Of a DNA stretch of 52,318 nt, positions 1 through 33,319 are shown piece by piece. The notes under the pieces were generated by a model, which was not told the DNA's origin, ran no database searches, and saw nothing but the letters and a program-made list of their open reading frames with translations. Where the stretch lies: positions 1 to 52,318 of IMG/VR virus record IMGVR_UViG_3300006870_000021; one strand, given 5' to 3'. The position numbers and the translations under genes were made by a program. Position 1 is the stretch's first letter, and each line of letters begins with the position of its first letter. Origin of the DNA: a virus.

Positions 1-843
1 ACTCATGAAAATCCCCAGATAGTACAGCAAGGAGATCAATTAGGTACTTTAAAGTTTAACGCATATACAGGCGCTGCTGGCGAACCTTATGGAAATGCTG
101 CATTTATAAGTGCAATAGCAAGTGAAACTCCTAGTTTTGGGCAAAAAACTATAGATGCAGAACTTTTATTAGGATCTATTAACAGTGTTGCAACAGGAGA
201 CTTTGTTACAATAAATTCTAAAGGTATTATTAAACCAAAAGGAATTATAATAGAACACACTCTTAATAGTGTGGCGCAACGTGATAAATCAAAACCTTGG
301 TGGCTTTCCGGAGGAACAGATTTTAGTTATCCGGTCCCTATAACAATAAACACAACTAGCACAGGTATACTTATTGCACAAACAGGAAACTTTAAACAAC
401 CTGCTATGCGTTTTGAAAGTTATGATAACAATCCATTAAAAGCTGGGTGGACTACTTTTAACAGATTTCGAGGTACACCCGATAATCCTGAATCTTTAAA
501 AAATGGTGACTTCATATATGCATTTGACTGGATGGGAAAATCATCAGATGAACCATGGGAATGGGGAATGGCTCAAACTGCAATTATAGATGACGATCCG
601 GGTGAGGGATATTTACCTACAAGTATGAACTGGGTTACTAGATTAGAACCATTCGGTGAACCAAAGGTTGCAGTAAAGATTAGTAGTAATGGCACACTTA
701 CTACTAATTACGGTAGTGTAATAAATGAAAATTTAGAGTTAAACGTAGAAGAAGTAAAAAATGTTAACTTAGAAGATGTAAAATTTGTTAAAGTAAAAGT
801 TAACGGTGAGTATAGAGCAATGCCTACTTATTCATTTGGATGA
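1..843 (+). CDS. Tail-fibre-like structural protein, C-terminal part (5' end outside window)
   Basis: The frame is open from base 1 to the TGA at 841-843, so this is the 3' part of a larger gene. The GTG at 271 lies inside the frame and is not a likely start. Residues encoded by 1-240 (GTLKFNAYTG, AAFISAI, and later TINSKGIIKPKG) align by eye with the central/C-terminal part of the fibre protein at 21844-23301 (GTLNFKAYDG, SAYISAL, SVSYMKLKG). The two are therefore paralogues. The rest is a unique C-terminal domain rich in Trp, Asn and Gly with no family I recognise. The gene converges on the minus-strand gene at 828-1025, overlapping by 16 nt with no terminator visible. A receptor-binding fibre role is inferred from the paralogy. 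Confidence 0.7.
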   Translation, partial: THENPQIVQQGDQLGTLKFNAYTGAAGEPYGNAAFISAIASETPSFGQKTIDAELLLGSINSVATGDFVTINSKGIIKPKGIIIEHTLNSVAQRDKSKPWWLSGGTDFSYPVPITINTTSTGILIAQTGNFKQPAMRFESYDNNPLKAGWTTFNRFRGTPDNPESLKNGDFIYAFDWMGKSSDEPWEWGMAQTAIIDDDPGEGYLPTSMNWVTRLEPFGEPKVAVKISSNGTLTTNYGSVINENLELNVEEVKNVNLEDVKFVKVKVNGEYRAMPTYSFG

Positions 844-1025
844 ATACCAACCTCTTCAATTTTAATATCTTTTCCTTGCCATGACCAAATAGTATGATCG
901 TACCAAGTATGAGATCCTGTACTTTGCGATTCGGCAAAAATATACAAACTTGTTTCAAGTTGAACTATCTTCTTGCCATCTTTCCAGTGACTTATGTAAC
1001 TTAAACATTCTTTAAATTTAGACAT
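828..1025 (-). CDS. Small hypothetical protein (65 aa)
   Basis: This 65-residue protein contains many aromatic residues (HTWYDHTIWSWQ). No family is recognised and no signal peptide or membrane segment is visible. The ATG at 1025 is preceded by a GGA-containing purine run. Its 5' end overlaps the 3' end of the 1001-1798 gene by 25 nt, and its 3' end overlaps the convergent fibre gene by 16 nt. It is the last gene of the leftward run that begins near 6625. Confidence 0.5.
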   Translation of the reverse strand: MSKFKECLSYISHWKDGKKIVQLETSLYIFAESQSTGSHTWYDHTIWSWQGKDIKIEEVGIHPNE

Positions 1026-1798
1026 TTTTCTTTTCCGTATTCGCTTAAATTTTTTATAGTATCAAATAATAATCGTTCTGTCTCTAAACTGTAATCTGTT
1101 CTAGATCTATATGCATTGATTATACCTTCGGCTCTGCGAAATCCGTTAATGCTTGATTTCCAAAATTCGGCTGCATTATCTAAGTCTAACGCTGTATCGA
1201 CTTCAAAGAATACACTATCTTTAAAATAAAAATTTTCATTTACAAAGTGGTTTACTAAAACATGATTTGGACTGTAATATGCAAGATTCTTTTGTTTACA
1301 TTGTACTCCTAAGTTATAATATGCATCGACTACTTTTTTAATATATGATTTAAAGTCTTCAACAACATTATTACTATTCGTCATTATATTAAATAACATA
1401 TAAGGCGGCGGATAACCTAACTCGCCTGGGCTACTAAAATAAGTATAGATATATTGTTCACCTTCTATTTGAACAGATGAGTAATTTTTTAATGTAGGAA
1501 ATTCAGGCATGGGATCTAACTTTTGATAATTTGAAATACCCCTAATTTTATTAGGATGGTATTCTTGCAAACAATGCATGTCTCCGTTAACTTTTAGACA
1601 ATGAACATATCTATAGCTAATTGTTTTTATTTCCTCATCGGTTATGTCCCACACACAATAATCAGGTCTATCTTTATATATGTAAAGCTTAGTAATAGAA
1701 TCTCTTGGATTTTGTTTTACAAACTCGTCAAATGTTTTTGTCCAGTTATCAAAGGTATAACATTTATCAACTATTATTTGTTTTAAATCTTCAATCAA
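1001..1798 (-). CDS. Hypothetical protein (265 aa), TTG start
   Basis: No family is recognised with confidence. The start is a TTG at 1796-1798 that overlaps the TGA stop of the upstream oxygenase-like gene (TTGA) and follows an AAGGA ribosome site at about 7 nt. This supports TTG over later codons. A segment near residues 165-200 (YYSPNHVLVN, then an acidic FFEVD) loosely recalls the catalytic and metal loops of kinase-fold proteins, as in the 16484-17176 gene. That resemblance is too weak for a name. It is translationally coupled in the oxygenase array. Confidence 0.6.
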   Translation of the reverse strand: MIEDLKQIIVDKCYTFDNWTKTFDEFVKQNPRDSITKLYIYKDRPDYCVWDITDEEIKTISYRYVHCLKVNGDMHCLQEYHPNKIRGISNYQKLDPMPEFPTLKNYSSVQIEGEQYIYTYFSSPGELGYPPPYMLFNIMTNSNNVVEDFKSYIKKVVDAYYNLGVQCKQKNLAYYSPNHVLVNHFVNENFYFKDSVFFEVDTALDLDNAAEFWKSSINGFRRAEGIINAYRSRTDYSLETERLLFDTIKNLSEYGKEKCLNLKNV

Positions 1799-2340
1799 GG
1801 TATTTCCTTTTGACTTATTTGAAGTACAATTCTAGGTGTAAGTCCTATATTAACACTTCCGTGTAAGTCATTGTCTTGATCGTACCTAAACAAGTCACCT
1901 GACGCATATCCGCTAACAAATTTATTTTCGTGTATAAACACATGCCCAGGTTCATAATCTTTCCATGGCATCCAAAATCTATAATTATTGTCGTGTACAT
2001 TTACAGTATCTCTGTGTAGCGGCATAAACTGTCCCGGCATCTGCTTTACTATCCACCAGTCTCCTTGTAAATATTTGTTAAGCTCGCCCATATCTAAGTC
2101 AAAAGGACAGTTACGATTATCAAATATTTCAGCCATGATTAGATTATTTCCATACGGACCATTAGTAAACATATCGGCTTGGTTATCATCTGTGGCTAGT
2201 GTTTGGTCTACATTAATTTCAACGTCATCATCTTTGCCGTCATGATCTTTCCAAGGACTAATCTCTATACCCTTAGTAGAAATTAACGTATCTATCCATT
2301 CTTGTTTAACTAAGTGATTAAAATTACCGTAAAATTTCAT
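1795..2340 (-). CDS. 2OG-Fe(II) oxygenase-like protein, array copy 1
   Basis: This is a predicted double-stranded beta-helix dioxygenase. From the ATG at 2340 it has 181 residues with H109-x-D111 (PLHRD), H160 (DLHGS) and R170 (TPRIVLQ). That is the order of two metal His, metal Asp and 2-oxoglutarate Arg in this superfamily. The upstream ATG at 2355 is rejected because it would bury the GGAG ribosome site that lies 7 nt before 2340. The four paralogues also begin with M-[KEI]-x-[YF]-x-x-N. It overlaps the SGNH gene upstream by 17 nt. The substrate is unknown, and these folds can also act as small-molecule or protein hydroxylases. Confidence 0.72.
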   Translation of the reverse strand: MKFYGNFNHLVKQEWIDTLISTKGIEISPWKDHDGKDDDVEINVDQTLATDDNQADMFTNGPYGNNLIMAEIFDNRNCPFDLDMGELNKYLQGDWWIVKQMPGQFMPLHRDTVNVHDNNYRFWMPWKDYEPGHVFIHENKFVSGYASGDLFRYDQDNDLHGSVNIGLTPRIVLQISQKEIP

Positions 2341-3070
2341 ATAAGTGCTCCGCATATTTTATATGAGCATCTTTATTTGGATGCCCCCAGGCTAGTCGTT
2401 CTTCACAAAAAAAATCTAAACCTTTATCTGTTAAAAATTTAGATTTACTTTTTTCGTATAAATCTAATATTATAGGCATAGATGAAATAATATTATTATT
2501 CATAGCAGGAACAATATTTATATTGTAGTATTCTAATACTTGTAAGTTTTTGACAAAATCCCAAGATATTCTGTCATCCGAAAACCAATCTATTAGTGCC
2601 TTGTCAGTCTGTTCATTAATAACAGGTTTTATATCTCCTGTATCTTTTACTCCTAATAAACCTTTGTACGGCCATAATAATGATGGTAACTGAAAAGATT
2701 CTACAGTTTTATTAAATATTGCATTGCGTGTTGCTTTAGTGAGTGAGACAATTACTATATCATTGTTAGTAAACTTATAATTGTTTTCAAAAACTTGATA
2801 TACAATTTTATCTAAACTATTTCCGCTTTCGGCATAATTGCAACATTGTAAATTTAGTTTATCTGCTAATAATTGCGGCCAAGATATTAGTTTTTGTTTT
2901 TCTTTTATAGCGTTGTATTCTTCTTGTAGATTCTCAGTTTCTAACTTTTTAAAAAATTTACGTGGATCATCAGACGTTGCTAATCTATAGTCGTTAATAG
3001 ATAATTCGTGTGCTAATAATTCTTCACCAGTGGCATAACTACAACCAAATACATATAATTTACTCATCAT
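2324..3070 (-). CDS. SGNH/GDSL-like hydrolase-fold protein
   Basis: This 248-residue protein begins YVFGCSYATGEE, which resembles SGNH block I with Ser as nucleophile. YAESGNS follows near residue 80, like the block with catalytic Gly/Asn. RLAWGHPNKDAHIKYAE near the C-terminus resembles the Asp/His block. The family removes acyl groups from carbohydrates, lipids or peptides. It sits inside the oxygenase array between copies 1 and 2, sharing 11 nt with the gene before it and 17 nt with the gene after it. The start is one of two adjacent ATG codons (3070 or 3067), and the ribosome site does not decide between them. A second SGNH-like protein lies at 17167-17859. Confidence 0.6.
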   Translation of the reverse strand: MMSKLYVFGCSYATGEELLAHELSINDYRLATSDDPRKFFKKLETENLQEEYNAIKEKQKLISWPQLLADKLNLQCCNYAESGNSLDKIVYQVFENNYKFTNNDIVIVSLTKATRNAIFNKTVESFQLPSLLWPYKGLLGVKDTGDIKPVINEQTDKALIDWFSDDRISWDFVKNLQVLEYYNINIVPAMNNNIISSMPIILDLYEKSKSKFLTDKGLDFFCEERLAWGHPNKDAHIKYAEHLYEILR

Positions 3071-3614
3071 ATATTGTAAATTGAAACGTTAGTCTTTCTG
3101 ATAGCCCTATATTTGCTGCGCCGTGTATTGCAAATGGATCATCGAATTCATATACATCGCCTGCTTTATATGGCCCAATTAATTTATCATCGTATATTAA
3201 AATATGACCAGGTTCATAATCTTTCCAACTCATCCAATAACGTACACAATTTTTTTCAAACTTTGTTGTTCTATCGCTGTGTATAGGAAGTACATGACCG
3301 GGCTTATATTTAAATAGATTAAAATAAGTTCCGCTAGTTCCATCTTTGTATGTAGTTACCCAAGGCGGTATACCTATATCAAATGGAAAGTTTCTCCCGT
3401 CAAATATATAATACATTAAAGACTTAACATCGTAACCTGCATCGCCGTACTTTTTTTGAAAATCACAGAACTCTGCACGTTCTCCTCTTTCAATTGCACC
3501 TTCAATGTCATTATCAACAAACTCGGCTTTTGGTTGCTCTATGCCTTCATTCTCGAGAGCATATGCAATCCATTCGTCTTGTAGCCAGTCTCGATAATTT
3601 CCTATATACTTCAT
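3060..3614 (-). CDS. 2OG-Fe(II) oxygenase-like protein, array copy 2
   Basis: This paralogue of the neighbouring oxygenase-like genes has 184 residues, with H112-x-D114 (IHSDR), H164 (AIHGAANIG) and R174 (SERLTF). The shared KDYEPGHI motif near residue 131 occurs in copies 1 and 5 almost unchanged. The stop of copy 3 and the start of this gene overlap by 4 nt, so translation is coupled. The facial triad is complete, so it is probably catalytic. The substrate is unknown. Confidence 0.72.
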   Translation of the reverse strand: MKYIGNYRDWLQDEWIAYALENEGIEQPKAEFVDNDIEGAIERGERAEFCDFQKKYGDAGYDVKSLMYYIFDGRNFPFDIGIPPWVTTYKDGTSGTYFNLFKYKPGHVLPIHSDRTTKFEKNCVRYWMSWKDYEPGHILIYDDKLIGPYKAGDVYEFDDPFAIHGAANIGLSERLTFQFTIYDE

Positions 3615-4138
3615 TGTTCTTCCTCATATAATGTTACTTGTAAAACTACACGAGGTGTTAAACCTATATTTGCTGCTCCGTGTAGACCTTGTGCATCGTC
3701 GTATTCGTATATATCACCCTTTTTATAGTTTGTTACTATTTCATCTTGAAACTTAAATATATGTCCTATTTCCCAATCTTGTAAAGGGATCCAAAATCTC
3801 TGAGCATTTTTTTGTACAGTAGTGTGCGGGTCAACATGCATCGGCATAAAGTCTCCTGGCATCATTTTTGTTAACCACCAGTGTCTTGATCTTCCACATT
3901 TATGGAATTCTGGTAAATCAAAAGGACAATTGTTTTTATCAAACATTTGAAAGTAAGTAGCTGTTGGATCATATCCAGCATCGATTGCTTTTTGCCACTC
4001 TTTTTCTCCTTCAGGTCCCTGCGGCTTTCCTCCGTCTCTCGGCCTATGCAATCCTTCGTTTTCTAAAATTAATTTTCTCCAAGTATCGAGTGTTTCTTCA
4101 GATACATCTAAATTCTTCATGTTATCTATGTATTTCAT
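3611..4138 (-). CDS. 2OG-Fe(II) oxygenase-like protein, array copy 3
   Basis: The product has 175 residues with H101-x-D103 (MHVDP), H153 (GLHGAANIG) and R163 (TPRVVLQVT). The C-terminal half is very close to copies 1 and 2. The N-terminal third differs and is shorter, as if the array diversifies in the substrate-facing part. The ATG at 4138 follows a GGATGAAG purine run and overlaps the end of copy 4 by 17 nt. Confidence 0.72.
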   Translation of the reverse strand: MKYIDNMKNLDVSEETLDTWRKLILENEGLHRPRDGGKPQGPEGEKEWQKAIDAGYDPTATYFQMFDKNNCPFDLPEFHKCGRSRHWWLTKMMPGDFMPMHVDPHTTVQKNAQRFWIPLQDWEIGHIFKFQDEIVTNYKKGDIYEYDDAQGLHGAANIGLTPRVVLQVTLYEEEQ

Positions 4139-4688
4139 TTTTTACTTCATCCTTTTTATAATATGCAGAAACTTGCAATATTATACGAGTAGTCGAACCT
4201 ATGTTTATTGCTCCGTGTAGTGCTTTTGTTTCATTATACAAGTATAGATCACCTTTATTATATTTGCTTACGGTTATGTCTTCGTATACAAATATGTGTC
4301 CTGGGTCATATTCTGTTAATGGCATCCAATACCTTCGTGTGTTTTTGTCGTCACCTCTTGGATTATCTCTATGGACCGGTATATATTGTCCGGGATACAT
4401 TTTTATTATCCACCAAGTAAAGTCTTCATCTGGCTGAATCCAAGGAGGATCAATTTTAAAACTTAATCCATCCTTTTCTAAAAGTTGAAATTGTACTAAG
4501 TCAGTTCCGTAAACTTTATAAATTTCCTCCTCAGACTTATCCATCGGCTCACGCTTGCCGTTTTCAATTTCCTCAAAAATATTTATATTTTGAAACATGT
4601 CTTTCGGTACGGACAACCCGGGTGTGTTTGTTATTTCTTCAATCCAAGAAGGATTGATCCAGTTTTTATAATTTTTAACAAACTCCAT
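4122..4688 (-). CDS. 2OG-Fe(II) oxygenase-like protein, array copy 4
   Basis: From the ATG at 4688 the product has 188 residues. An in-frame TTG one codon upstream is rejected because AAGGA is spaced about 6 nt from the ATG. Triad residues are VHRD near 106-108, LHGAINIG with His near 158, and TTRIILQVS with Arg near 168. Two Trp residues precede the metal motif (TWWIIKMYPGQ), as in copies 1 and 5. It overlaps both neighbours by 14-17 nt. Confidence 0.72.
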   Translation of the reverse strand: MEFVKNYKNWINPSWIEEITNTPGLSVPKDMFQNINIFEEIENGKREPMDKSEEEIYKVYGTDLVQFQLLEKDGLSFKIDPPWIQPDEDFTWWIIKMYPGQYIPVHRDNPRGDDKNTRRYWMPLTEYDPGHIFVYEDITVSKYNKGDLYLYNETKALHGAINIGSTTRIILQVSAYYKKDEVKNEIHR

Positions 4689-5376
4689 CAATGTTCCTTG
4701 AAGGTTTATAGTCTACTATTTGTAAAATACATCTGTTTGTTGTACCTAAATTGCAAGCACCGTGCCAGTCACCTGCGTAGTCAAACTTATACACATCACC
4801 TTTTTTATAATTAGAAACTTCTTTATCACCTATAATAAATATGTGTCCTGGTTCGTAATCAGTCCAAGGCATCCAATATTTATTTATAGGTATATCAGGT
4901 TTTGCTCTATCAGTATGTACAGGCATTAAGTCTCCTGGTTTCATTGTACTAAACCACCAAGTAATGTGTTTACCTTTATAGTCTAAAAATGGCGGAGGAT
5001 TGTCTAAAAGGTCAAATGATAAATCAAATTTTTCTAGTAGACTAAAATGATTCGCATATACATCATATCCTGAGTTTGTATACATGTCATATTCTTCGCC
5101 CATTTCTCGATCCGGATCGAGATAATCTATATGTATCTTTGCATGTTTAACTGCTTTATCATTAGGATCTAATGTGTTTAGATGTTCTTGTATATTTAGA
5201 TAATCTTCCTTTGTATGTATGTAACTTATGTCTTGTATAAATTCACGTAGTATCGGATTAAATCTTGCTTCATTTCGCAAACTATGTTTTGGCATTTCAA
5301 ACCCAGGATTTGACAACACTTCTTTACACCAGGTATCCGGTATCCAATCTGCATAATTACCAATATATTGTATCAT
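4675..5376 (-). CDS. 2OG-Fe(II) oxygenase-like protein, array copy 5 (long)
   Basis: This is the longest paralogue at 233 residues, with about 45 extra residues before the core (the segment near 45-100, rich in charged residues). The core has H154-x-D156 (VHTDR), H205 (DWHGACNLG) and R215 (TTNRCILQI), plus the YEPGHIFI motif. The ATG at 5376 follows a GAGGAAATTAA ribosome site. It is the first gene of the five-copy array in the direction of transcription. Confidence 0.72.
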   Translation of the reverse strand: MIQYIGNYADWIPDTWCKEVLSNPGFEMPKHSLRNEARFNPILREFIQDISYIHTKEDYLNIQEHLNTLDPNDKAVKHAKIHIDYLDPDREMGEEYDMYTNSGYDVYANHFSLLEKFDLSFDLLDNPPPFLDYKGKHITWWFSTMKPGDLMPVHTDRAKPDIPINKYWMPWTDYEPGHIFIIGDKEVSNYKKGDVYKFDYAGDWHGACNLGTTNRCILQIVDYKPSRNIDGVC

Positions 5377-5405: not shown

Positions 5406-5966
5406 TTATAAATTAGTTTCTATGTTAAATCGAACACTTAATAAGTATCTAGGGTGTTTTGAAAAATTTGTAACACTATGTGGTGTAGTTACTTTTACAA
5501 CTTTTGGTTTATCTATAGAACACTCGTCTATAACTTTAGGATTACCTATCCATATTGGTCTTAAATGTTGCGAATCATCTGCTGGTAAATTTGGTTTATT
5601 TGTAGGAGTTGCGTATCCAATGTCATAATTACTATCATACCAATACATTGTTGTATCTTGGCAATTAAATATAGGAATATTTAATGCCCAATGTTGATCC
5701 GGTGTAGGAGGATTATGTCCATCTATATGAACTCGTAAACTTTCATTTCCGCTTAACCCACCTAGCACACATATTTTAATTTTTGGATCTTCTGAGAATA
5801 TATCGATGATATCATCTATAATTTTTTCTCGTAACCAGATGATATCATTGTCTGTTTTATCAAATACTGTTATTGATTGCCCGATTAGATCTTTATTAAT
5901 ATACTTGCTAAAACGTTCCTGTATATCTATAAAATTTTTTAAATCTATATCATAGTGTAAGGGCAT
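5406..5966 (-). CDS. Aspartyl/asparaginyl beta-hydroxylase-like 2OG-Fe(II) protein
   Basis: The 186-residue product has H80-x-D82 (RVHIDG) followed by PPTPDQHWALNIPIFN, then H163 (TPHSVTNF) and R173 (HPRYLLSVRF). This layout is that of the Asp/Asn beta-hydroxylase branch of the superfamily and is distinct from the five-copy array next to it. Its ATG shares one base with the TAA of the nitroreductase gene, so the two are coupled. It may be a target-specific hydroxylase, but the substrate cannot be read. Confidence 0.65.
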   Translation of the reverse strand: MPLHYDIDLKNFIDIQERFSKYINKDLIGQSITVFDKTDNDIIWLREKIIDDIIDIFSEDPKIKICVLGGLSGNESLRVHIDGHNPPTPDQHWALNIPIFNCQDTTMYWYDSNYDIGYATPTNKPNLPADDSQHLRPIWIGNPKVIDECSIDKPKVVKVTTPHSVTNFSKHPRYLLSVRFNIETNL

Positions 5967-6625
5967 TAATATTCTACGACTGGAACTTCTTGTCTTTTAT
6001 TTGTAGGATATAAAATTTCATCGTCAACTTGATGTTTTCTGCGGCTTACACCTTCTTGTTTAAACCCTACACCCATTATCAATAAAGGATCATTCTCTAA
6101 ATTTAGTGCTTCTTTAACTTTTACATGATCCATACTTAAACAACAACCAGTTGCATAACCTAACATCTGAGCAGTTAAATTTAAATAACCAGAAACTATA
6201 CCTAAAGCTACATTTTTATCAAAATCTTTCGGTTCGTCAGCAATTCTTTTTTCTTTAAAGTGTGATTCTACTTTATAATAGTCTTCAAAAACTACAACAA
6301 GATTTGCTAATGTTTGACTTTGTGTAGCATCTCCCATTTCGTGATATTTGTCTTCGTCTCGTGGATGCGGATCAACTATTTTAGTACCATCTTCTGCAAT
6401 AGCGTACGGTGCACCGTGTGTTGCTGCGTGTACTTTTTCGATAGTCTCTCTATCTTGTATAAAGTGAACCTTATAGAATGCCACATTTTGTAAACTAGGA
6501 GCTTGTGTTAAGCTTGTTTTAAGTATGTCTAAATCTTCTTGAGGTATTACTTTATCTAAATCCCAATTACGCTGACAGTGTTGGCTGCGAATTATAGCTT
6601 TGCTTAAATTTTTTCTTATGTCCAT
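5966..6625 (-). CDS. Nitroreductase-family FMN oxidoreductase
   Basis: The product has 219 residues. The N-terminal block AIIRSQHCQRNWDLDKVIP with APSLQN is the FMN-phosphate-binding region of the nitroreductase fold. The later segment ALGIVSGYLNLTAQMLGYATGCC and the LIMGVGFKQ strand match the usual C-terminal half. Members reduce nitro groups, quinones or flavins with NAD(P)H, and some fragment FMN. An AGGAG site precedes the ATG. It is the first gene of the leftward run ending at 828 and is divergent from the radical-SAM operon at 6668. It may supply reductant to the redox enzymes around it, which is inference. Confidence 0.75.
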   Translation of the reverse strand: MDIRKNLSKAIIRSQHCQRNWDLDKVIPQEDLDILKTSLTQAPSLQNVAFYKVHFIQDRETIEKVHAATHGAPYAIAEDGTKIVDPHPRDEDKYHEMGDATQSQTLANLVVVFEDYYKVESHFKEKRIADEPKDFDKNVALGIVSGYLNLTAQMLGYATGCCLSMDHVKVKEALNLENDPLLIMGVGFKQEGVSRRKHQVDDEILYPTNKRQEVPVVEY

Positions 6626-6667: not shown

Positions 6668-7750
6668 ATGTTCCATTTTAACGAGCTAACACAAATCCAT
6701 CTTGAAATTACAAATCGCTGTCAAGCAAGCTGTCCTATGTGTAATAGAAATATTAGAGGCGGTTTAGATAATCCTTTAATAAAGAATAATGATTGGACAG
6801 TATCTGATTTTAAGAAAATTTTATCTCACAGTGTTTTAGATAAAATCACTGGTTTTTATTTCTGTGGAAATTTTGGCGATCCTATTATTAATAATGATTT
6901 AATAGATATGTGCAAATATGCAGTAGAGTATAAACCTGAAATAAACATCGCTATACATACAAATGGTAGCGCACGTACTACACAGTGGTGGGAATTGTTA
7001 GCCCAAACATTACCCAAAGATAGTAGAGTAGTTTTTGCACTGGATGGTTTAGCCGATACACATTCATTATATAGGATCGGTACTAGTTTTGAAAAAATTA
7101 TTTCAAATGCTCGGGCATTTATTAATGCAGGAGGAACTGCTGAATGGTGTTTTATTAAATTTAAACATAACGAGCACCAAGTAGGAGAAGCAGAAAAATT
7201 AGCAAAAGAAATGAAATTTAAACATTTTTCAGTAAAGAATAGTAGTCGATTTATCGGTGAACCAAAATATGCTGTTTTAGATTCAAATGCAACTACTACA
7301 CATTATATAGAACCTCCTAGTGATAACAAGATGTCTTTTATAAGTAACGATGTTATTAAAAACTATAAAGAAATAGTTAATAATAGTGAGATAAATTGTT
7401 ATGTTTTACACACGAAGGAAATATATATTGATGCTAATAGGATAGTATATCCTTGTTGTTATCTTGCAAGTGTGCCGTTTACAAATATACCAAAAGATGA
7501 GACAACTCAGGCTCGAATAGATATAAGAACACAGCACGAAGAATATATTACAGATCTTGGCGGATATGATAATATTAATTCTTTACAAAAATCTATCGAA
7601 GATATTGTAAATGCAAAGTTATGGCATACAGTTTGGAACAAATACTGGTTTAAACAAAAAATGATTACCTGTGCAAGAAGTTGTGGCACAATTAAAGAAA
7701 TATCAAAACCTTATGAGCAGATTGTTACTACGGAAACTATAAATGGATAA
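6668..7750 (+). CDS. Radical SAM enzyme (SPASM-like C-terminal Cys region)
   Basis: The product has 360 residues. C18-x3-C22-x2-C25 (CQASCPMC) is the 4Fe-4S/SAM-binding motif. GNFGDP near residue 75 and TNGS near 107 match the following SAM-contact strands. Cysteines near 250-275 (INCYVLH, YPCCYL) and near 338-345 (TCARSCG) resemble an auxiliary-cluster region. It overlaps the next gene by 8 nt and starts a three-gene radical-SAM operon. Enzymes of this architecture modify peptides or small molecules, and no precursor is seen beside it. Confidence 0.8.
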   Translation: MFHFNELTQIHLEITNRCQASCPMCNRNIRGGLDNPLIKNNDWTVSDFKKILSHSVLDKITGFYFCGNFGDPIINNDLIDMCKYAVEYKPEINIAIHTNGSARTTQWWELLAQTLPKDSRVVFALDGLADTHSLYRIGTSFEKIISNARAFINAGGTAEWCFIKFKHNEHQVGEAEKLAKEMKFKHFSVKNSSRFIGEPKYAVLDSNATTTHYIEPPSDNKMSFISNDVIKNYKEIVNNSEINCYVLHTKEIYIDANRIVYPCCYLASVPFTNIPKDETTQARIDIRTQHEEYITDLGGYDNINSLQKSIEDIVNAKLWHTVWNKYWFKQKMITCARSCGTIKEISKPYEQIVTTETING

Positions 7751-9125
7751 AATTAAATCTTACCAAACTGAAATTAAAAAAGTAAGTGGTAGTGATACGT
7801 TTTGTGTTCTTCCTTGGATACACTTAGCAACTCGACCAAATGGTGATATGCGATTATGTTGTACAGCAAATGCTAGTGGAGCAGGCGAAGACCATGAAGT
7901 TGGTTTAATAAAAGGAGACGACGGTCGTCCTGCAAACTTTGCTAAGACTACTCCTATGGAAGCGTGGAACAATCAATATATGCGTAATGTAAGATTAGAT
8001 ATGCTTAACGGAAATAAACCAGCAAGTTGTATGGGATGTTATAAAGAAGAAGAACAAGGAATTGTTAGTAAACGTATATGGGAAACTGGAACGTGGTATA
8101 AAGACGAAGGTATAGATATACCAGATCTTATTAAACAAACTGAAGAAGACGGCACTGTTCCTGAACAATTGCAATATTTAGATTTAAGGCTTGGTCATAC
8201 TTGTAACATTAAATGTGTAATGTGCAGTCCGCACGATAGTTCTAAATGGGTACAAGATTGGAAGCTGCTGTATCCCCAGTTAGAAAATCCTGAAGTAAAA
8301 CAACAAATGGGCTGGGAGAAAAAAGAATTTAATAATAAGTGGCATGAAAAGGACACATTTTGGGGAGAGTTATATAAACAAATTCCTAATTTAAAACAAG
8401 TATATTTTGCAGGCGGCGAGCCTTTAATGATAAAAGAACATAAAATGTTTATTAAAGAAATTATCCGCCAAGGCTATCAATCTAGTATATTGCTAAGATA
8501 TAACTCTAATGGATTATTAGTAGATAATGAACTTATTGATCTGTGGAGTAAATTTAGAAAAGTAAAGTTTGCAGTAAGTGTTGATGCAATAGAACAGCGA
8601 GATGATTATATAAGATATCCAACTAAATTTGACGAAGTAAGTCGTACACTACATTTATTAGATTCAACACCTGATAATATACATGTTAGTATGGCAACCG
8701 CAGTACAAATTTTTAACATTAAACATCTACCAGATTTTATAAAATGGAAAGTTAATCAAAATTTTAAAAAAATGAATGTTGGTTTAGTTGGTGGAGTTCT
8801 TATGGGCGGCGGTTTAGTAAATATGCACTTGGTACATATACCTACATTTTTAAATATTACAATACTTCCAAAAGAAGATAAAGAAGATGTACACCGTAGA
8901 TTTGCAGATTTTAAAGAGTGGCTTTGGAATAACTATACTCAAGATGACGATTATTGGAATGTTAATCCTTATGGTTGGAGACGCTGGGAAGCATTACTAG
9001 AACATATGGATTCGGTTGATAATAGTTATAGGCTTAGCGGTTTTAAAGAATATGTAACTAAATTAGATAAAATAAGAAATCTAAACGCCGCTTCTGTATT
9101 TCCTGAACTGGCACACTTGTTATGA
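7743..9125 (+). CDS. Radical SAM enzyme with N-terminal auxiliary-cluster domain
   Basis: The 460-residue product has an inverted layout. A Cys-rich auxiliary-like module comes first (C21, C39, C40, C96, C99; FCVLPWIHL, RLCCTA, CMGCYKEEE). The radical-SAM core follows, with C154-x3-C158-x2-C161 (CNIKCVMC) and AGGEPL near 225. The same layout occurs at 10909-12213, so the two are paralogues. It overlaps the first operon gene by 8 nt and the third by 4 nt (ATGA). Confidence 0.8.
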   Translation: MDKIKSYQTEIKKVSGSDTFCVLPWIHLATRPNGDMRLCCTANASGAGEDHEVGLIKGDDGRPANFAKTTPMEAWNNQYMRNVRLDMLNGNKPASCMGCYKEEEQGIVSKRIWETGTWYKDEGIDIPDLIKQTEEDGTVPEQLQYLDLRLGHTCNIKCVMCSPHDSSKWVQDWKLLYPQLENPEVKQQMGWEKKEFNNKWHEKDTFWGELYKQIPNLKQVYFAGGEPLMIKEHKMFIKEIIRQGYQSSILLRYNSNGLLVDNELIDLWSKFRKVKFAVSVDAIEQRDDYIRYPTKFDEVSRTLHLLDSTPDNIHVSMATAVQIFNIKHLPDFIKWKVNQNFKKMNVGLVGGVLMGGGLVNMHLVHIPTFLNITILPKEDKEDVHRRFADFKEWLWNNYTQDDDYWNVNPYGWRRWEALLEHMDSVDNSYRLSGFKEYVTKLDKIRNLNAASVFPELAHLL

Positions 9126-10036
9126 AGTTAACAAAAATTATAACAACACGACCTTACAACGAATTAGATATCACATTCTGGCCAACTGATATTTGTAACT
9201 TTAATTGTTCATATTGCTTTCCGGGTAGTAAGGATGGCATATATAGATTTGAAAAAAATTTAGATATTGTATTAAACAAATTTAAAAAGTTATTTGCAGA
9301 TTATTCTTCGATAGGTAAAGATAAATTTAATATTACTATAGCAGGCGGAGGTGAACCTACACTTTGGCCTATACTTGATCAATTTTGTTCTCAAATTACA
9401 TTATTAGAAAATGTAAAAATTCAACTAGTAACAAATGGTAGTAGAACTTTAAAGTGGTGGAGTAATAATGCAAAATATTTAGATAAGGTACATTTAAGTT
9501 GTCATTCTGAAGACGTTGATATAGATCATTTTATTAATGTTGCAGACGTACTTACACAAAAAGGCACTGAAGTTACGGCAATGATGCTTATGGATGCAAA
9601 ACGTTGGGATCTCTGTGTTAGTTATATTGATAAGATGCAACATAGTAAAGAACAATGGAAAATTTTAGCCAAAGAAGTAGTTGCTGCGCCTGGACATGAT
9701 ATAGATAGTTATACTAATGAACAACTAGAATACATAAAACGTTCTACTAAAAGATTTGTATTTTTTGAAAAGGATATAAGCGAATACAGGACAGTAGAAA
9801 GTTTAGGATTTTATGATGACAAATCTTTTCCTGCATATAATAATACCTATATAGCAAACAAACAAAATTATTTTAAAGGTTGGAACTGTAATATGCCTGT
9901 TGAACGGATAAGTGTCGACGCAGGACTTAATATAAAAGGAAGTTGTGGAGTAAACTTTGATAAACTAGACTCTATTATTTGCCCGCTAGACTGCTGTGAT
10001 TGTCAACCTGATACACATATTACTAAGTTTATTTAA
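9122..10036 (+). CDS. Radical SAM enzyme
   Basis: The product has 304 residues. C25-x3-C29-x2-C32 (CNFNCSYC) is the cluster motif, and AGGGEPTLW near 77-86 is the glycine-rich SAM strand. The C-terminus holds many Cys (WNCNM, GSCGVN, ICPLDCCDC), likely an auxiliary cluster site. It is close in organisation to the opposed gene at 10029-10916, and the two converge with an 8-nt overlap. It is the third gene of the operon and is joined to the previous one by ATGA. Confidence 0.78.
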   Translation: MKLTKIITTRPYNELDITFWPTDICNFNCSYCFPGSKDGIYRFEKNLDIVLNKFKKLFADYSSIGKDKFNITIAGGGEPTLWPILDQFCSQITLLENVKIQLVTNGSRTLKWWSNNAKYLDKVHLSCHSEDVDIDHFINVADVLTQKGTEVTAMMLMDAKRWDLCVSYIDKMQHSKEQWKILAKEVVAAPGHDIDSYTNEQLEYIKRSTKRFVFFEKDISEYRTVESLGFYDDKSFPAYNNTYIANKQNYFKGWNCNMPVERISVDAGLNIKGSCGVNFDKLDSIICPLDCCDCQPDTHITKFI

Positions 10037-10916
10037 ATTTTGTTAAAGGAATATCAGCAGCACAAGTACAAAATTTACGTGTGCAGTCTATATACTCGGT
10101 AGGGCGTGTAAAACTACCGTTGTAAATGTTACCTAAACTACCTCCTACTCGACAAGTTGCTCTATGTACTTCACCGTCCCAATTTATCATTAAACTTTCA
10201 ATGCCAGCAGCACACTTCCATCCCTCAAATTGATTACGTTTTGTTTTAATTATGTCATTAGCATGTGCTAGTTCTTCTTCGTCAACAACACAATTTGGTT
10301 TTGCAGTTGCATTTACACTTAACAGCCATTCTAAGTCCTGTGCATCATATCGCATATCGTCAAACCAGTCATGCTTCTCTGTCCATCTAATTCTACGTAA
10401 TGCAAACGGAATACCATACCCTACTAACCGTGCTGTTGCTTCTTTTACTCTTTTCATATGGTCATGATGAGCCATTACATTTACATGAAAGGGTATCTTC
10501 TGTGTATTCTGCTGATTAAACCAAAGTATGTTGCCTAATGCTCTTGTCCAACTTTCGTTGTCAAAGTGTAAACTAAAAACATAATGATCAACTGGTGCTT
10601 CTGCATACCATACAGGTTTTCGTAATCCGTTAGTTGTTATATTGACCCAACTTAGTTTTGATTTTGTATGTTTAACTAATTCTTCGAAGTGAGGATGTAC
10701 TGTTGGTTCTCCGCCTGTAAAACTAATTCTCACAGGTTTATCAAATTCTTCTAATATGTCAACTGTATTTTTTAATGTATCTATATTAGTGTGTGGAGAT
10801 GTCATGTCGTGTATCTCAGGAGGACAATACGCACAGTCTAAATTACAACGCTTTCCGAGGTTCCATTCAATTTTAACAGAGTCTTGATGCGGCCACCTAC
10901 TAGTTACTTTATACAT
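10029..10916 (-). CDS. Radical SAM enzyme
   Basis: The product has 295 residues from the ATG at 10916. An in-frame TTG three codons upstream is less likely. C24-x3-C28-x2-C31 (CNLDCAYC) binds the catalytic cluster, and SFTGGEPTVH follows near 65. The tail has GWKCAAGIES, HRATCRVGGS and DCTRKFCTCAA, a probable auxiliary-cluster region. Its start overlaps the end of 10909-12213 by 8 nt, giving a two-gene radical-SAM unit behind the QueC-like gene. The layout resembles the convergent gene at 9122-10036. Confidence 0.78.
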   Translation of the reverse strand: MYKVTSRWPHQDSVKIEWNLGKRCNLDCAYCPPEIHDMTSPHTNIDTLKNTVDILEEFDKPVRISFTGGEPTVHPHFEELVKHTKSKLSWVNITTNGLRKPVWYAEAPVDHYVFSLHFDNESWTRALGNILWFNQQNTQKIPFHVNVMAHHDHMKRVKEATARLVGYGIPFALRRIRWTEKHDWFDDMRYDAQDLEWLLSVNATAKPNCVVDEEELAHANDIIKTKRNQFEGWKCAAGIESLMINWDGEVHRATCRVGGSLGNIYNGSFTRPTEYIDCTRKFCTCAADIPLTKFK

Positions 10917-12213
10917 AAGGAGCAAACTCAGGGTTAGAATCTAAAAAACTTTGATTGCGAGTCTTGTCTAAAGCACGATTAAAATTTATACAATCTTGCC
11001 AATACTCACTTAGATCTCTTGCTTTTAAAAAATTAATGTTGTCGGCCACTTGCCTCTCAGTAATAGGTATAAGCACAGGATGATCTCGTACAATCGGATA
11101 ATCACGGAAGGTCTCTTGTATGGTTTGTAAGTTTTCAATTACTTTCTCCTTTAATGCATTAGGCAATGTTTGTGCGCTTAATGGGCGTGGATAGTTTACT
11201 CTATGCGAATAAAACACAATGCCCATTTCGTTTAAAAAGTAATCTATTACTTTGTCAATTTGCATAATATTATTTGCTTGTACAGTAAACGCACCTACTA
11301 CTCTATTTACATTAGGAAAGCTTTTAAACACTTTTACATTTTCTTCAACTTCTGTAAAATCACCATTACCTCTAATATATTCATATGTGTCGTGTATACC
11401 GTCTATGCTTACATTTACAGCAATGCTACGAAACTTAGGCCAATAGTCGTGTATAGTACGTCCGCCTTTTATGCCTAGCGTAGTGCCGTTAGTAGCATAT
11501 TTTAGTTCAATGTTGTCTCCATACTCTGCAAGTCTGTCTAGTATCTTATAGTGGTACGGATCCATTAACGGCTCACCACCTGCAAATTCTACACGTCTAA
11601 AGTGTGGTAGTAATTTCTCAAATGATGACCACCAGTTGTCTGAGTTATCAAACGGGCCAATATATTTGCCCGGAGTGTCAGTAAGTTTGTCGATAATTGG
11701 AATTAAGATATTGTTTTCTTTTTCGTAAAAAGGCTTTACTTCATTCCAGTCTTTCCAACTAGTTGAATCAAGTGGGTTACACATTCGACATTTTAAATTA
11801 CATAGATTGTTTAGTTTAATTTCCATAGTAGGAAGTTCAAACGGCATTGTAAAATCGTCTTGTAGTGCATCTAACGCATCTGGATATAAGTTTATACGTG
11901 CTTCGGGTATTACTCCCGCTATATGACGCTGTCGTAAGCTCTCTACACCCTGATCTTCTAAATCAAAACACGGCTTGCAAACATCAGGTCGTTCGTTGTT
12001 TAACACTTGCTGGCGAACTTCTTGCATGGATTTATTATTCCATGCATCTTCTAAAGATTCGTTTTGGATATAACCGATCGGCTGGCTACGGCAGCACACT
12101 TTTATAGCACCGTCTTCTCGTGTTGCTAAACCTGTAAAAGGGTGCATACAAAATGTACAACTATTTGATTTGATCAATAGCCCATTCTCTCTCTTTACAC
12201 CAAAAACATTCAT
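10909..12213 (-). CDS. Radical SAM enzyme with N-terminal auxiliary-cluster domain (paralogue of 7743-9125)
   Basis: The 434-residue product has an N-terminal Cys module (CTFCMHPF, VCCRSQ, CKPCFDLEDQG), then C138-x3-C142-x2-C145 (CNLKCRMC) and FAGGEPLMD near 215. The match to 7743-9125 extends through DAWNN(K/Q) and the LATR..G segment. The start is uncertain. The ATG at 12213 has no ribosome site and would overlap the QueC-like gene by 53 nt. A TTG at 12177 after GAGAGAATGGGC is an alternative. Confidence 0.78.
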   Translation of the reverse strand: MNVFGVKRENGLLIKSNSCTFCMHPFTGLATREDGAIKVCCRSQPIGYIQNESLEDAWNNKSMQEVRQQVLNNERPDVCKPCFDLEDQGVESLRQRHIAGVIPEARINLYPDALDALQDDFTMPFELPTMEIKLNNLCNLKCRMCNPLDSTSWKDWNEVKPFYEKENNILIPIIDKLTDTPGKYIGPFDNSDNWWSSFEKLLPHFRRVEFAGGEPLMDPYHYKILDRLAEYGDNIELKYATNGTTLGIKGGRTIHDYWPKFRSIAVNVSIDGIHDTYEYIRGNGDFTEVEENVKVFKSFPNVNRVVGAFTVQANNIMQIDKVIDYFLNEMGIVFYSHRVNYPRPLSAQTLPNALKEKVIENLQTIQETFRDYPIVRDHPVLIPITERQVADNINFLKARDLSEYWQDCINFNRALDKTRNQSFLDSNPEFAPYV

Positions 12214-12832
12214 TACATATTGGAACAGACTGGCCTGGTGTATATGTTAAATAATCTATTTCGTCAAACTCACCTTCGCAACTTCTAGTTAAGTTTAGTA
12301 AGTCCTTAATATTATGTTCGTAGTATTGTTTTATAATCCAGTCTTTACTAGTATACACGAAAGGATGTAAAATGTCAACCCCCATATGCTTCATATGTAA
12401 TGGTAAAACTCCTTCGTTACGTTCAGGAAGTGCGCCGGGTATATCTATATCTGGATTTTTGTTAACAGCAGCATACCATGCATCTAAATTATAAGTATGT
12501 GCCACCCATTCGTTATGAGCTCGTAATATTATTCTATTTCCAGGTTTAAGTGCTCCGTATTCGTCGGTAATAAATGTTGTATTAGGTTCTTCCATTTCTG
12601 GAGGAATAAAATTTTCTATATGTTCTATAGGATTTTTAAACCTTTGTCGGAACCATTCCACAACTTCGATAGCAATATACCTTTGCCATGGTCGAGTTTT
12701 CCAACAACGTATTTGTGTAGTAAAGTATATTTCTGCATTAGTTTGTGATAATATAAGATATGATAATAACGCACTATCGGCACCGCCACTTAAACTTATT
12801 CCTATACGTTTCCAGTTTTTGCTAACATCCAT
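12161..12832 (-). CDS. QueC-like PP-loop ATPase
   Basis: The product has 223 residues. SLSGGADSALL (residues 13-23) is the PP-loop of N-type ATP pyrophosphatases. Four cysteines, C185, C206, C209 and C212 (CNECFWCKERE), match the zinc site spacing of QueC, the 7-cyano-7-deazaguanine (preQ0) synthase. HPFVYTSKDWIIKQYY is also QueC-like. It could supply the preQ0 step missing from the folE/queD/queE/DpdA cluster 20-28 kb away. Its neighbours are radical-SAM enzymes, so a different amidation or thiolation in this island is equally possible. No Shine-Dalgarno is seen before the ATG. Confidence 0.6.
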   Translation of the reverse strand: MDVSKNWKRIGISLSGGADSALLSYLILSQTNAEIYFTTQIRCWKTRPWQRYIAIEVVEWFRQRFKNPIEHIENFIPPEMEEPNTTFITDEYGALKPGNRIILRAHNEWVAHTYNLDAWYAAVNKNPDIDIPGALPERNEGVLPLHMKHMGVDILHPFVYTSKDWIIKQYYEHNIKDLLNLTRSCEGEFDEIDYLTYTPGQSVPICNECFWCKEREWAIDQIK

Positions 12833-12857: not shown

Positions 12858-12865
12858 TATAAATA
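12858..12865 (+). promoter_or_regulatory. Late promoter octamer TATAAATA, leaderless arrangement
   Basis: The exact T4 late consensus TATAAATA ends at 12865. If the octamer spans -13 to -6, position +1 is 12871, the first base of the ATG of the next gene. No Shine-Dalgarno sequence is present. This argues that the in-frame ATG at 12865, which overlaps the octamer, is not used. Confidence 0.55.
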
Positions 12866-12870
12866 TGTTT

Positions 12871-13542
12871 ATGATAAAAGATACACAATATAGTGTTGAT
12901 ACAAAATTTATCGATCAAGCACTCGACACTACAGATTTTAATACAGGTAAACATACATTAAACAACCCTACTGGTGATTTTTTCTATGATCCTTGGGAAA
13001 TATCTCCTAAGTACAAAGGAACAGTGTGGGATTGGATATTAAGTACGCTTAGAGAACCACACGGTGAAGCAAGAATTATTACAATGGAAAGTAAGAGTAA
13101 CTATGTTGGTCATAGTGATATTGATGATAGATGGCATCTAAATCTTAGCGGAATAGATTGTTATTTAATTGACATTAGTAATGAAACTATGCATAAATGT
13201 GTAAAAGACGGCAAGTGGTATTTAATGGATACAGGTGTTATACACTCAGCAGCTAATTTTGGTAATAGATACAGGCACCAGTTAGTTGTAAGAAAATTAT
13301 TAAATAAAGTTAATATAACTGAAACTAAAACAATAAGAATTGTTCCTTTAATAAAAGATTTAGACGAAGTTCGATACGAATTTGATAAAAATTTAAGTCC
13401 TGTTTTAAATAAAGCAAATAAACAATATCAAATAAGCGATTTTAGATTAGAGAATGGATTACCCGTATTCAAGTGCGGGCAACTACTTTCTACTATAATT
13501 AAAAATAACTTAGGTACTTGTTTAGGAATGGAGACAGAATGA
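12871..13542 (+). CDS. 2OG-Fe(II) oxygenase-like protein
   Basis: The product has 223 residues from the ATG at 12871, chosen because the earlier ATG at 12865 lies within the promoter octamer. H81-x-D83 (GHSDID), H125 (GVIHSAANFG) and R135 or R141 (RHQLVVRKL) give a complete triad. About 80 residues follow the core, with no recognised domain. It overlaps the next oxygenase-like gene by 4 nt (ATGA). Confidence 0.65.
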   Translation: MIKDTQYSVDTKFIDQALDTTDFNTGKHTLNNPTGDFFYDPWEISPKYKGTVWDWILSTLREPHGEARIITMESKSNYVGHSDIDDRWHLNLSGIDCYLIDISNETMHKCVKDGKWYLMDTGVIHSAANFGNRYRHQLVVRKLLNKVNITETKTIRIVPLIKDLDEVRYEFDKNLSPVLNKANKQYQISDFRLENGLPVFKCGQLLSTIIKNNLGTCLGMETE

Positions 13543-14096
13543 AACTTTTTATCGATAACTTAGCAGATAGAATAGATCTAGATGCGCTTATAGACACTTG
13601 CGTTAAAGCCGGTGGACATGAGCAATACGGGCCAAAGCCCATCGAAGAAGGTAAACATTATCATGAGGAGTATATACATCAAGTAAATTTAATGGAAAAG
13701 GCAGGATACTTAGGTAACGGACAATGTAGGTTTAAACATTATTATCCTGATCAACAGTTTCCTAAAAGCATTTCTTTACAAGTTGCAGAAGCAGCAGGTG
13801 TTGAACATTTAGGAAGTTTTATAAGTAGTGTTGATCCTGGATATTGTGCACCTTGGCACACAGATATCTTTAATAATTATTATAGAGAAATGGAAGACGA
13901 AGGTGTTGATATGCGTAGATTTGTAATGTTTATCTCAAAACCGCAACCTGCTGTAGGCTTTGTAATTGAAGATGAGTGCTTTTATATGGAAAAACAGGGT
14001 AATTTATATGAATTTCCGCATATAAAAAATTGGCATGCTGGATTTAATGCAGGACTAGAAACAAAATTTATCTTCACGCTTACTGGTAGGAAGTGA
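13539..14096 (+). CDS. 2OG-Fe(II) oxygenase-like protein
   Basis: The start is the ATG at 13539, which overlaps the preceding TGA and follows GGAG at 6 nt. An upstream in-frame ATG at 13518 is rejected. The 185-residue product has H107-x-D109 (PWHTDI), H166 (NWHAGFNAG) and a Lys at 176 (ETKFIFTLTG) where most relatives have Arg. The Lys variant is known for some 2OG enzymes. It converges on the B12-type radical-SAM gene, with a 42-nt overlap of coding ends and no visible terminator. Confidence 0.6.
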   Translation: MKLFIDNLADRIDLDALIDTCVKAGGHEQYGPKPIEEGKHYHEEYIHQVNLMEKAGYLGNGQCRFKHYYPDQQFPKSISLQVAEAAGVEHLGSFISSVDPGYCAPWHTDIFNNYYREMEDEGVDMRRFVMFISKPQPAVGFVIEDECFYMEKQGNLYEFPHIKNWHAGFNAGLETKFIFTLTGRK

Positions 14097-15675: not shown

Positions 15676-16491
15676 CTAGTAATTATCTAAATGATCTATA
15701 CCTAATTGTTTTCTAAATGATTCTGTAAACTTACCGTCTATGCGCAACCCATAAGTTGGCGACATCACTCTGTTACCACCGTGCCAGTCTTGATCATTCC
15801 AGAATGCAGCGCGAGTGTTTATACCGTGTTTCATCTTTTTATCAGGATCCCATATATAAAACTGATTCCTTGTATCTGGACGTATATGTATAAATTCGTT
15901 ATTGTGTGGCTCGTACCTATCTTTAGGCCATATACCATTATGGGCGCCTAAATCTCTATGTTCAAACGGCAATCCATCTGCTTCGCAATGAAAGAACATA
16001 ACACGACCAAATGATTCAAATATCTCATTAGTTTTAAAGTCTTCTAGCCATTTCATTACATTAGGAAAGTATTCAGACTCTTCTGTTTTCTTTTTCTCAC
16101 CCGGTCTATCATCCCAGTCGCCTTCTTCATATAAAAAATAGTATATGTAAGGATCATATGCCTCCATTGCCATCTTTAAATAACGAGTTATTAGGTTACG
16201 TTGTTTATAATCCTTAAAGTCAGTAGGCCATATTTTCATACCTTCTACTTTTATAGGATCATCATCTGGTAGTGCTTGAAATTCTTCCATTGCAGCATAT
16301 ATAGGTTTCCAATTGAGAATATAACTCATATCTTTAAATTCAAAACCCGGCTTCATCCAAGTGCCTTCTTTTGCAAACCATCTTGCTTCAGCAAATCCTC
16401 GAATTATTTCAGGTTGTAATTTTTCAAATGTAGACATATCTATATATGGTTCTACATCAATATATGTATTACTGTTAATTCCTTTAATCAC
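15676..16491 (-). CDS. 2OG-Fe(II) oxygenase-like protein (large, GTG start)
   Basis: The start is a GTG at 16491 that overlaps the TAA of the upstream gene by 8 nt, with AAAGGA upstream. The 271-residue product has H178-x-D180 (FEHRDL), H237 (DWHGGNR) and R250 (YGLRIDG). The N-terminal 150 residues are rich in Trp, Tyr and acidic residues and are not recognised. The order of motifs supports a dioxygenase of the same broad class as its neighbours. Confidence 0.62.
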   Translation of the reverse strand: MIKGINSNTYIDVEPYIDMSTFEKLQPEIIRGFAEARWFAKEGTWMKPGFEFKDMSYILNWKPIYAAMEEFQALPDDDPIKVEGMKIWPTDFKDYKQRNLITRYLKMAMEAYDPYIYYFLYEEGDWDDRPGEKKKTEESEYFPNVMKWLEDFKTNEIFESFGRVMFFHCEADGLPFEHRDLGAHNGIWPKDRYEPHNNEFIHIRPDTRNQFYIWDPDKKMKHGINTRAAFWNDQDWHGGNRVMSPTYGLRIDGKFTESFRKQLGIDHLDNY

Positions 16492-33108: not shown

Positions 33109-33287
33109 TAACGTTCAACCAACGGTTTAGTATTGTTTGAGTCGTGATAATCGCCTGATTTGTAATAATCACGACTTGCTTCTTCTTTAACCATAATGCC
33201 ATTACGCATACGATATGTAATAATTTCTCTACGAATTACTCCGCTTGTGTCAGCATCGAATGCTGCTTTAAATGGTCCTTCACTCAT
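33108..33287 (-). CDS. Small hypothetical protein (59 aa)
   Basis: Read directly: MSEGPFKAAFDADTSGV, then REIITYRMRNG and SGDYHDS. It resembles a short conserved protein seen in marine T4-like phages, function unknown. The ATG overlaps the folE TGA, and AACAGGAG lies upstream. Its TAA overlaps the hemJ ATG (TAATG), so folE, this gene and hemJ form one coupled unit. Confidence 0.6.
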   Translation of the reverse strand: MSEGPFKAAFDADTSGVIRREIITYRMRNGIMVKEEASRDYYKSGDYHDSNNTKPLVER

Positions 33288-33319
33288 CTTGATGCAAACT
33301 CCTGTTGTAGTTTAATATT
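33284..33319. repeat. 36-bp direct repeat, copy 2 (folE 3' end)
   Basis: Original location of the repeat: the end of folE with the internal AACAGGAG that serves as ribosome site for the gene starting at 33287. Confidence 0.8.

Follow-up and report, generated by a model that had tools for sequence, protein, structure and literature searches.

A five-gene array of putative 2-oxoglutarate oxygenases in an island rich in radical-SAM genes from uncultured giant phages

Results

Five overlapping oxygenase-like genes

The viral sequence studied here, a 52,318-base fragment in IMG/VR (record IMGVR_UViG_3300006870_000021) referred to below as the window, carries at positions 1795-5376 five homologous minus-strand genes resembling 2-oxoglutarate (2OG)- and Fe(II)-dependent oxygenases, designated copies 1 to 5 (c1-c5). 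The PolB protein of the window shares 50% identity with PolB of the Sinorhizobium jumbo phage Phosso and 45% with that of Agrobacterium phage Atu_ph07. A record of 265,680 bases likewise carries the five-gene array. Four separate IMG/VR contigs have copy 1 at 100% identity, and a fifth has it at 96%; the array is therefore no assembly artefact. The array and the genes next to it comprise the following features:

1001-1798, minus strand: uncharacterised gene downstream of copy 1, syntenic in type-1 arrays
1795-2355, minus strand: copy 1, 2OG-Fe(II) oxygenase-like, with the ATG at 2340 as its preferred start
2324-3070, minus strand: SGNH-like hydrolase gene between copies 1 and 2; motif-based call
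3060-3614, minus strand: copy 2, 2OG-Fe(II) oxygenase-like
3611-4138, minus strand: copy 3, founder-like type; AlphaFold model with pLDDT 95.8 and pTM 0.90
4122-4691, minus strand: copy 4, 2OG-Fe(II) oxygenase-like, with the ATG at 4688 as its preferred start; sub-threshold likeness to PF05118
4675-5376, minus strand: copy 5, whose N-terminal half contains an additional helical insert; AlphaFold model with pLDDT 91.4 and pTM 0.87
5406-5966, minus strand: ox6, a distant oxygenase-like gene upstream of copy 5, syntenic in type-1 arrays; H-x-D and H...R found by eye
5966-6625, minus strand: nitroreductase-family gene (PF00881, E 6e-10), the first gene of the array strand, also syntenic

All five open reading frames (ORFs) that an earlier, sequence-only reading of the window had described as homologues are present, and each of the ten protein pairs was matched by BLASTP with E-values from 7e-23 to 9e-35 (for a database size of 1e6). 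In the alignment of the five proteins 22 columns are invariant, and copies 2-5 share 32-36% identity with copy 1. The reported range of overlaps between neighbours, 4-17 nt, was borne out: with the preferred starts, the overlaps amount to 14 nt for c5/c4, 17 nt for c4/c3, 4 nt for c3/c2, 8 nt for c2 and the SGNH-like gene, 17 nt for the latter and c1, and 4 nt for c1 and the next gene. For copy 1 we favoured the internal ATG as the start codon, since it is preceded by CGGAG and the upstream ATG is not. Numbered from this internal ATG, the residues H109, D111, H160 and R170 assigned earlier to the site of copy 1 are exact, and the complete H-x-D...H...R set is intact in all five copies. Two further motifs thought to be common to the array hold for four of the five copies each: the start M-x-[YF]-x-x-N fails in copy 5, which has one extra residue, and the proposed EPGH-type motif, seen as xPGH elsewhere, reads WEIGH in copy 3.

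The single SGNH-like gene expected between copies 1 and 2 is present at 2324-3070 on the minus strand. S11 (within GCS), N84 and H230 of its product are invariant in 9/9 cases. No Pfam, NCBIfam or PDB profile matched this protein, an alkaline phosphatase at 0.11 being taken as chance. Wherever the region is present, the gene immediately follows copy 2 in both types of array. A PDB profile search with the product of the gene at 1001 gave no match.

Active site and predicted fold

When IMG/VR was scanned with the alignment of all five copies, 160 relatives were confirmed, and the best 80 of these 160 (79 loci) were retained. The H, D, H and R of the catalytic site are kept in 90/90 distinct relatives, all five copies included, and in 90/90 the arginine for 2OG binding is situated ten residues past the distal histidine. 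Alignment A3 covers 82 of these 90 sequences, and the remaining 8 were inspected for the metal triad separately. Beyond the metal and 2OG residues, D142 and N157 of copy 3 are also invariant in 90/90 relatives.

The AlphaFold models of copies 3 and 5 align to 2OG-Fe(II) enzymes with the double-stranded beta-helix fold. The copy 3 model matched PiuC over the whole chain (Z 13.6, 151 residues, 3.2 A) and the copy 5 model did so along its length (Z 12.4), while matches to PHD2, P4H and SnoN reached Z values of about 11-12. Foldseek's top places for copy 3 are taken by cupins (TM <0.45 by query length), and the superfamily call thus rests on the second aligner together with the catalytic residues. 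The fold ranking picks out no substrate, as the scores of PiuC, PHD2, P4H, SnoN, OkaE and AlkB are close together, and AlkB chains are among the tied fold matches of copy 5. In the model, the extra length of this copy is made up of four helices inserted after the second strand, ahead of the next helix.

The nearest sequence family is Pfam PF05118, which 22 of the 82 members of the alignment match at E<=0.01. A type-2 array relative (G007:C1:23259-23681) passes its cut-off with 23.3 vs 22.6 bits. The window copies do not reach it, copy 5 scoring 18.1 bits, copy 4 scoring 16.0 bits and the other three having no match, and membership of PF05118 by score was therefore rejected for them. None of the five copies matched NCBIfam. 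In PHROGs copy 1 alone has a match, to a family of unknown function (1.3e-4), and a PDB sequence-profile search with alignment A3 gave weak matches, the best at E 0.19. We regard it as very probable that the five genes encode 2OG oxygenases with intact active sites, and Fe(II)- and 2OG-dependent activity is predicted for c1-c5.

Origin of the array

The array had been proposed to result from a local expansion, and we examined its history in a careful tree of 63 rows out of the 90 distinct sequences, comprising the array loci and 22 named single loci, with 4 long-branch rows deliberately excluded. In this tree, every copy of the window falls together with the copies at the same position in other phages, with bootstrap and SH-aLRT values of 100/100 for c1, 99/98 for c2, 100/100 for c3, 100/96 for c4 and 100/100 for c5. 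Arrays of the same order occur elsewhere in uncultured phages with 49-77% identity to the window copies: the order nitroreductase gene-ox6-c5-c4-c3-c2-SGNH-c1 is common to contigs L006, L007, L014 and L022. A rearranged set of four to six array members is found in L013, L025, L033 and L036. The adjacency and overlap of the paralogues would fit a recent duplication inside this phage. However, a window-only clade of the five copies was rejected in the approximately unbiased (AU) test (lnL difference 617, p-AU 2e-53), same-order orthologues exist at 49-77% identity, and the copies of the one genome are not nearest each other in the tree. A recent origin, rejected by the tree and the AU test, is thus extremely improbable. 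The proposed local expansion therefore holds in kind, arrays occupying a single-copy slot, but not as a recent event.

The array-only copies (31/63 rows) and the copy-3/single-copy type (32 rows) lie on opposite sides of a branch with bootstrap 94 and SH-aLRT 93; a quick tree rooted on an outgroup gave the array-only side an SH-aLRT of 82. The pattern that the sequence-only reading had named as an argument against local duplication, in which a copy is nearer to the single gene of another phage than to its neighbours, was found for copy 3, which shares 57-60% identity with lone genes in L065, L066, L069 and L079 and about 32-38% with its full-length neighbours; within the arrays of other phages, each window copy is nearest to the one of the same position. 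According to separate scans, the c1 group is represented in 13 contigs, the c2 group in 19 and the c5 group in 12. To the extent that their length lets one judge, all of these contigs carry arrays, and no lone c2 gene was seen among them, two c2 contigs (L109 and L117, about 4 kb) being too short to display a whole array. The c4 group comprises 12 contigs at >=49% identity, beyond which the pattern catches the general family.

Single copy-3 genes and arrays share a slot beside rSAM3-rSAM2-rSAM1, genes of the radical S-adenosylmethionine (radical-SAM) type. Among 53 distinct loci, rSAM1/rSAM2 are near 13 and oxD or a gene of the 16484 type is near 28, while 12 have neither within the flank, nine of these 12 being array loci. 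With extended flanks, rSAM1 borders six array types (L177/L178, L180, L182, L183/L181, L107, L108 and L116). The array-only types thus form one group and occupy the place where other phages have the single gene, as an ancient expansion in place predicts. Because of the positional orthologues, the array-only branch and the shared slot, we conclude with considerable confidence that a copy-3-like gene was duplicated in place long ago and that its descendants were retained with diverged roles.

Two observations concern individual arrays. Between L014 and L022, c3 and c4 share 73-77% nucleotide identity and c5, c2, the SGNH-like gene, c1 and the next gene 91-98%; the c3-c4 stretch is an exchanged segment within the array. 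In L057 (3306-4685), a close relative of L006, c5, c4 and c3 are shortened to 219, 163 and 98 amino acids, through deletions or an assembly fault.

Sequence differences among the copies

The N-terminal halves differ more than the cores, as had been noted, with a mean pairwise identity of 25% for the N half vs 42% for the core. From the start to HxD the window copies have 101-154 residues, and after HxD 73-83. Of 12 group-specific positions, 7 belong to the core and 5 to the N half; they cluster beside the metal site (85-98 and 112 in copy 3) and in the N half (32-64). In the alignment and model check suggested by the sequence-only reading, residue differences were located beside the active site, and the changes of length fell in the N-terminal half. 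The dN/dS comparison it also called for, carried out by the NG86 method, gave omega values of 0.02-0.13 for the 12 of 15 pairs with unsaturated dS, dS being saturated for c3 in both comparisons and for c1 in one. These ratios indicate purifying selection, and all five copies are accordingly under constraint. Judged from the sequences, a change of substrate specificity among the copies, each its own conserved group, is plausible.

Genomic neighbourhood

The array is part of a radical-SAM/2OG-oxygenase island. The window has at least seven further oxygenase-like genes, recognised by motif or profile, and six radical-SAM matches. The island and its border comprise the following features:

6668-12213: five radical-SAM genes (rSAM1-5), two of the twitch/SPASM type, forming the block by which the slot of the array is recognised
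12161-12832, minus strand: PP-loop/QueC-like gene (phrog_1550, E 7.9e-8)
12865-13542, plus strand: oxB, oxygenase-like
13518-14096, plus strand: oxC, oxygenase-like; the one distant homologue that a search with the family profile gave
14055-15674, minus strand: rSAM6, a sixth radical-SAM gene
15676-16491, minus strand: oxD, oxygenase-like
16484-17176, minus strand: pseudokinase-like gene beside oxD
17167-17859, minus strand: second SGNH-like gene
17856-18497, minus strand: oxE, oxygenase-like
18494-19126, minus strand: oxF, oxygenase-like
19128-19811, minus strand: oxG, oxygenase-like
21844-23301, minus strand: tail-fibre protein at the island border (phrog_9729, E 1.6e-14)

Between 6 and 19 radical-SAM matches per record were counted in 14/14 records examined; since these were selected for carrying the copy-3/array oxygenase family, the figure cannot be extended to phages in general. 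To the left of the window, a near-identical record (L184, G002:C1:57001-77000) has genes for radical-SAM, B12-radical-SAM and class-III aminotransferase proteins, together with PfkB-type kinase, epimerase and transketolase-type genes and, by eye, an amidinotransferase-like gene. In tblastn searches of 50,697 GenBank phage records, cyanophages included, copy 3 had no match; oxD had none in the same records, and rSAM2 matched 3 at about 23% identity. For close cellular relatives, a scan of genome contigs with a copy-3-type alignment, whose reach extends to near relatives only, returned 31 pattern matches and no relative.

Two of the rSAM genes match the twitch/SPASM model NF033640 with 396 and 326 bits. 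Together with the PF00881 nitroreductase at 5966-6625 and the five 2OG oxygenases, they might serve ribosomal-peptide tailoring, acting on a phage-encoded peptide. However, no gene for a precursor peptide was seen, short ORFs not having been searched systematically, and the array genes leave almost no spacing between them; we consider such a role quite unlikely.

A fibre-like gene at window positions 1-843 (plus strand; full length in L001:7513-8469, minus strand) encodes two internal repeats of the form RGT..NP..NGD, identified by eye. It adjoins the type-1 array in L001, L005, L006, L007, L014, L022 and L057. Its product has no Pfam match above chance, no PHROG or PDB match, and, by tblastn, no match in the GenBank phages. 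The conservation of this opposite-strand neighbour beside type-1 arrays, along with the tail-fibre gene at the island border, raises the idea that the five enzymes hydroxylate virion proteins, modifying tail-fibre or baseplate proteins such as this neighbour and thereby tuning receptor binding. The protein hydroxylases PHD2 and P4H with EF-Tu among the nearest folds are in line with this idea, yet the structural ranking mixes protein, DNA and small-molecule enzymes and the fibre nature of the adjacent protein was assigned by eye, unsupported by the three databases. Modification of virion proteins is therefore unlikely.

The window also contains genes for QueE (31585-32478; phrog_2076, 8.6e-52) and GTP cyclohydrolase (33284-33970; phrog_2197, 1.6e-44) and, by eye, a TGT/DpdA-like gene (38892-40430). 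With the QueC-like gene at 12161-12832, they possibly function in 7-deazaguanine DNA modification. QueE and GTP cyclohydrolase suggest base modification, cyanophage 2OG-Fe(II) genes have been proposed to act in DNA repair (PMC3037559), and copy 5 aligns to AlkB with Z values up to 11.5; the five proteins might accordingly be AlkB- or TET/JBP-like enzymes that modify or repair nucleic acids. AlkB is, however, tied with PiuC, SnoN and PHD2, and the array accompanies sugar and radical-SAM genes, not replication genes, making a role of this kind highly unlikely.

Further genes were noted in the window. The pseudokinase-like gene at 16484-17176 is conserved as the neighbour of oxD in other phages; a profile built from 26 relatives gave a match to TTK kinase over positions 62-163 (E 2.1e-5), and by eye the catalytic Asp, the next Asn and the DFG Asp are all substituted. 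A fatty-acid desaturase gene (20467-21237, plus strand; PF00487, 2.1e-22) adjoins a sulfotransferase-like gene with a sub-threshold match (21237-21842, plus strand), and a haem-oxygenase-like protein was recognised by eye at 34442-34978 (minus strand).

Discussion

From computed homology, fold, intact sites, orthologous groups, order, purifying selection and genomic context we infer catalysis, a division of labour and a product for the array. The reading to which we give somewhat better than even chances is that five intact, old and order-kept hydroxylases of an uncultured giant myovirus lineage jointly tailor a phage-specified product. A single copy-3-like gene beside radical-SAM genes would have been duplicated in place long ago, and five distinct orthologous types would then have been retained in fixed order. 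Each protein is expected to bind Fe(II) via H-x-D...H and 2OG via the arginine ten residues past the distal histidine, and each, probably most like Asp/Asn/Pro-type hydroxylases, may hydroxylate or oxidise a C-H bond at a separate position or on a separate intermediate. The five enzymes would act on one product together with the radical-SAM, nitroreductase, SGNH-like and sugar-nucleotide genes of the island.

This product would most likely be a decorated surface glycan or a sugar/amino-acid metabolite on the infected host. We favour this class because the island also contains genes of the sugar-nucleotide and aminotransferase types and because similar clusters in other phages have been so interpreted (PMC7824862, PMC7029224, as far as the sections considered here go), and its probability is perhaps just short of one half. 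Several points weigh against our interpretation. The glycan idea depends on neighbours, some of them named by eye, and SPASM radical-SAM proteins, a nitroreductase and 2OG enzymes fit peptide tailoring as well. In addition, the branch separating array-only from copy-3-type sequences is slightly below the level at which branches were starred, and every window copy falls short of the PF05118 cut-off. More tentatively, the conserved island, with its 6-19 radical-SAM genes per record and a dozen 2OG oxygenases, may represent a phage biosynthetic assembly line in which the array sets defined hydroxylations on one peptide, glycan or metabolite, a possibility that we consider rather doubtful.

The presence of several 2OG oxygenases in marine phages has been known since at least 2010, and the explanations given in the sources considered are generic: repair, 2OG drawdown, or decoration of a metabolite or capsule. 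T4-like marine cyanophages carry several 2OG-Fe(II) genes, in 14/16 genomes according to the part of PMC3037559 considered, and resemble the phage described here in having multiple such genes per phage; in relation to copy 3, however, cyanophage proteins give fold matches only, at 12-17% identity, with no match by tblastn. Cyanophage clusters with 2OG-Fe(II) dioxygenases (2OGFeDOs) have been proposed to decorate the capsule or to make a metabolite, and the cluster of the jumbo cyanophage S-SSM6a is similarly a giant-phage cluster combining several 2OGFeDOs with sugar enzymes. It differs in having carbamoyltransferases and a halogenase, while neither a radical-SAM block nor a tandem oxygenase array is described in the sections of PMC7824862 considered here. 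The host-recognition clusters of pelagimyophages are, likewise, large variable islands by the tail fibres with lipopolysaccharide (LPS) genes and radical-SAM cassettes, and an Asp/Asn beta-hydroxylase is reported to belong to the core of those phages. These clusters are bounded by VrlC and gp14, and the corresponding sections of PMC7029224 describe no tandem array.

Among protein families, PF05118 shows sub-threshold likeness to copies 4 and 5, but the array proteins are small, tandemly encoded and variable in their N-terminal half. PiuC, PHD2 and bacterial P4H share fold and triad with them (Z 11-13.6), yet at about 10-14% identity a shared function is unreadable. The best viral model match to copy 3 is A0A6J5KYJ0, an uncharacterised protein of an uncultured Caudovirales phage (TM 0.77, 31% identity). 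A tandem array of this kind was not found in the portions of the literature considered, which included PMC3037559, PMC7029224, PMC7150976 and PMC7824862. Judged against these sources, phage 2OG oxygenases and radical-SAM cassettes are already known, and the five-gene array tied to a radical-SAM-rich island is the new part.

The array points to a radical-SAM/2OG island in giant phages, and for two genes of this island, oxD and copy 3, tblastn gave no match in GenBank phages. Its five separable orthologous groups, the single-copy relatives of the founder-like type and the tie between the SGNH-like gene and copy 2 provide a natural series for finding substrates. As it stands, the array suggests that the phage attaches a number of different hydroxyl groups to some molecule.

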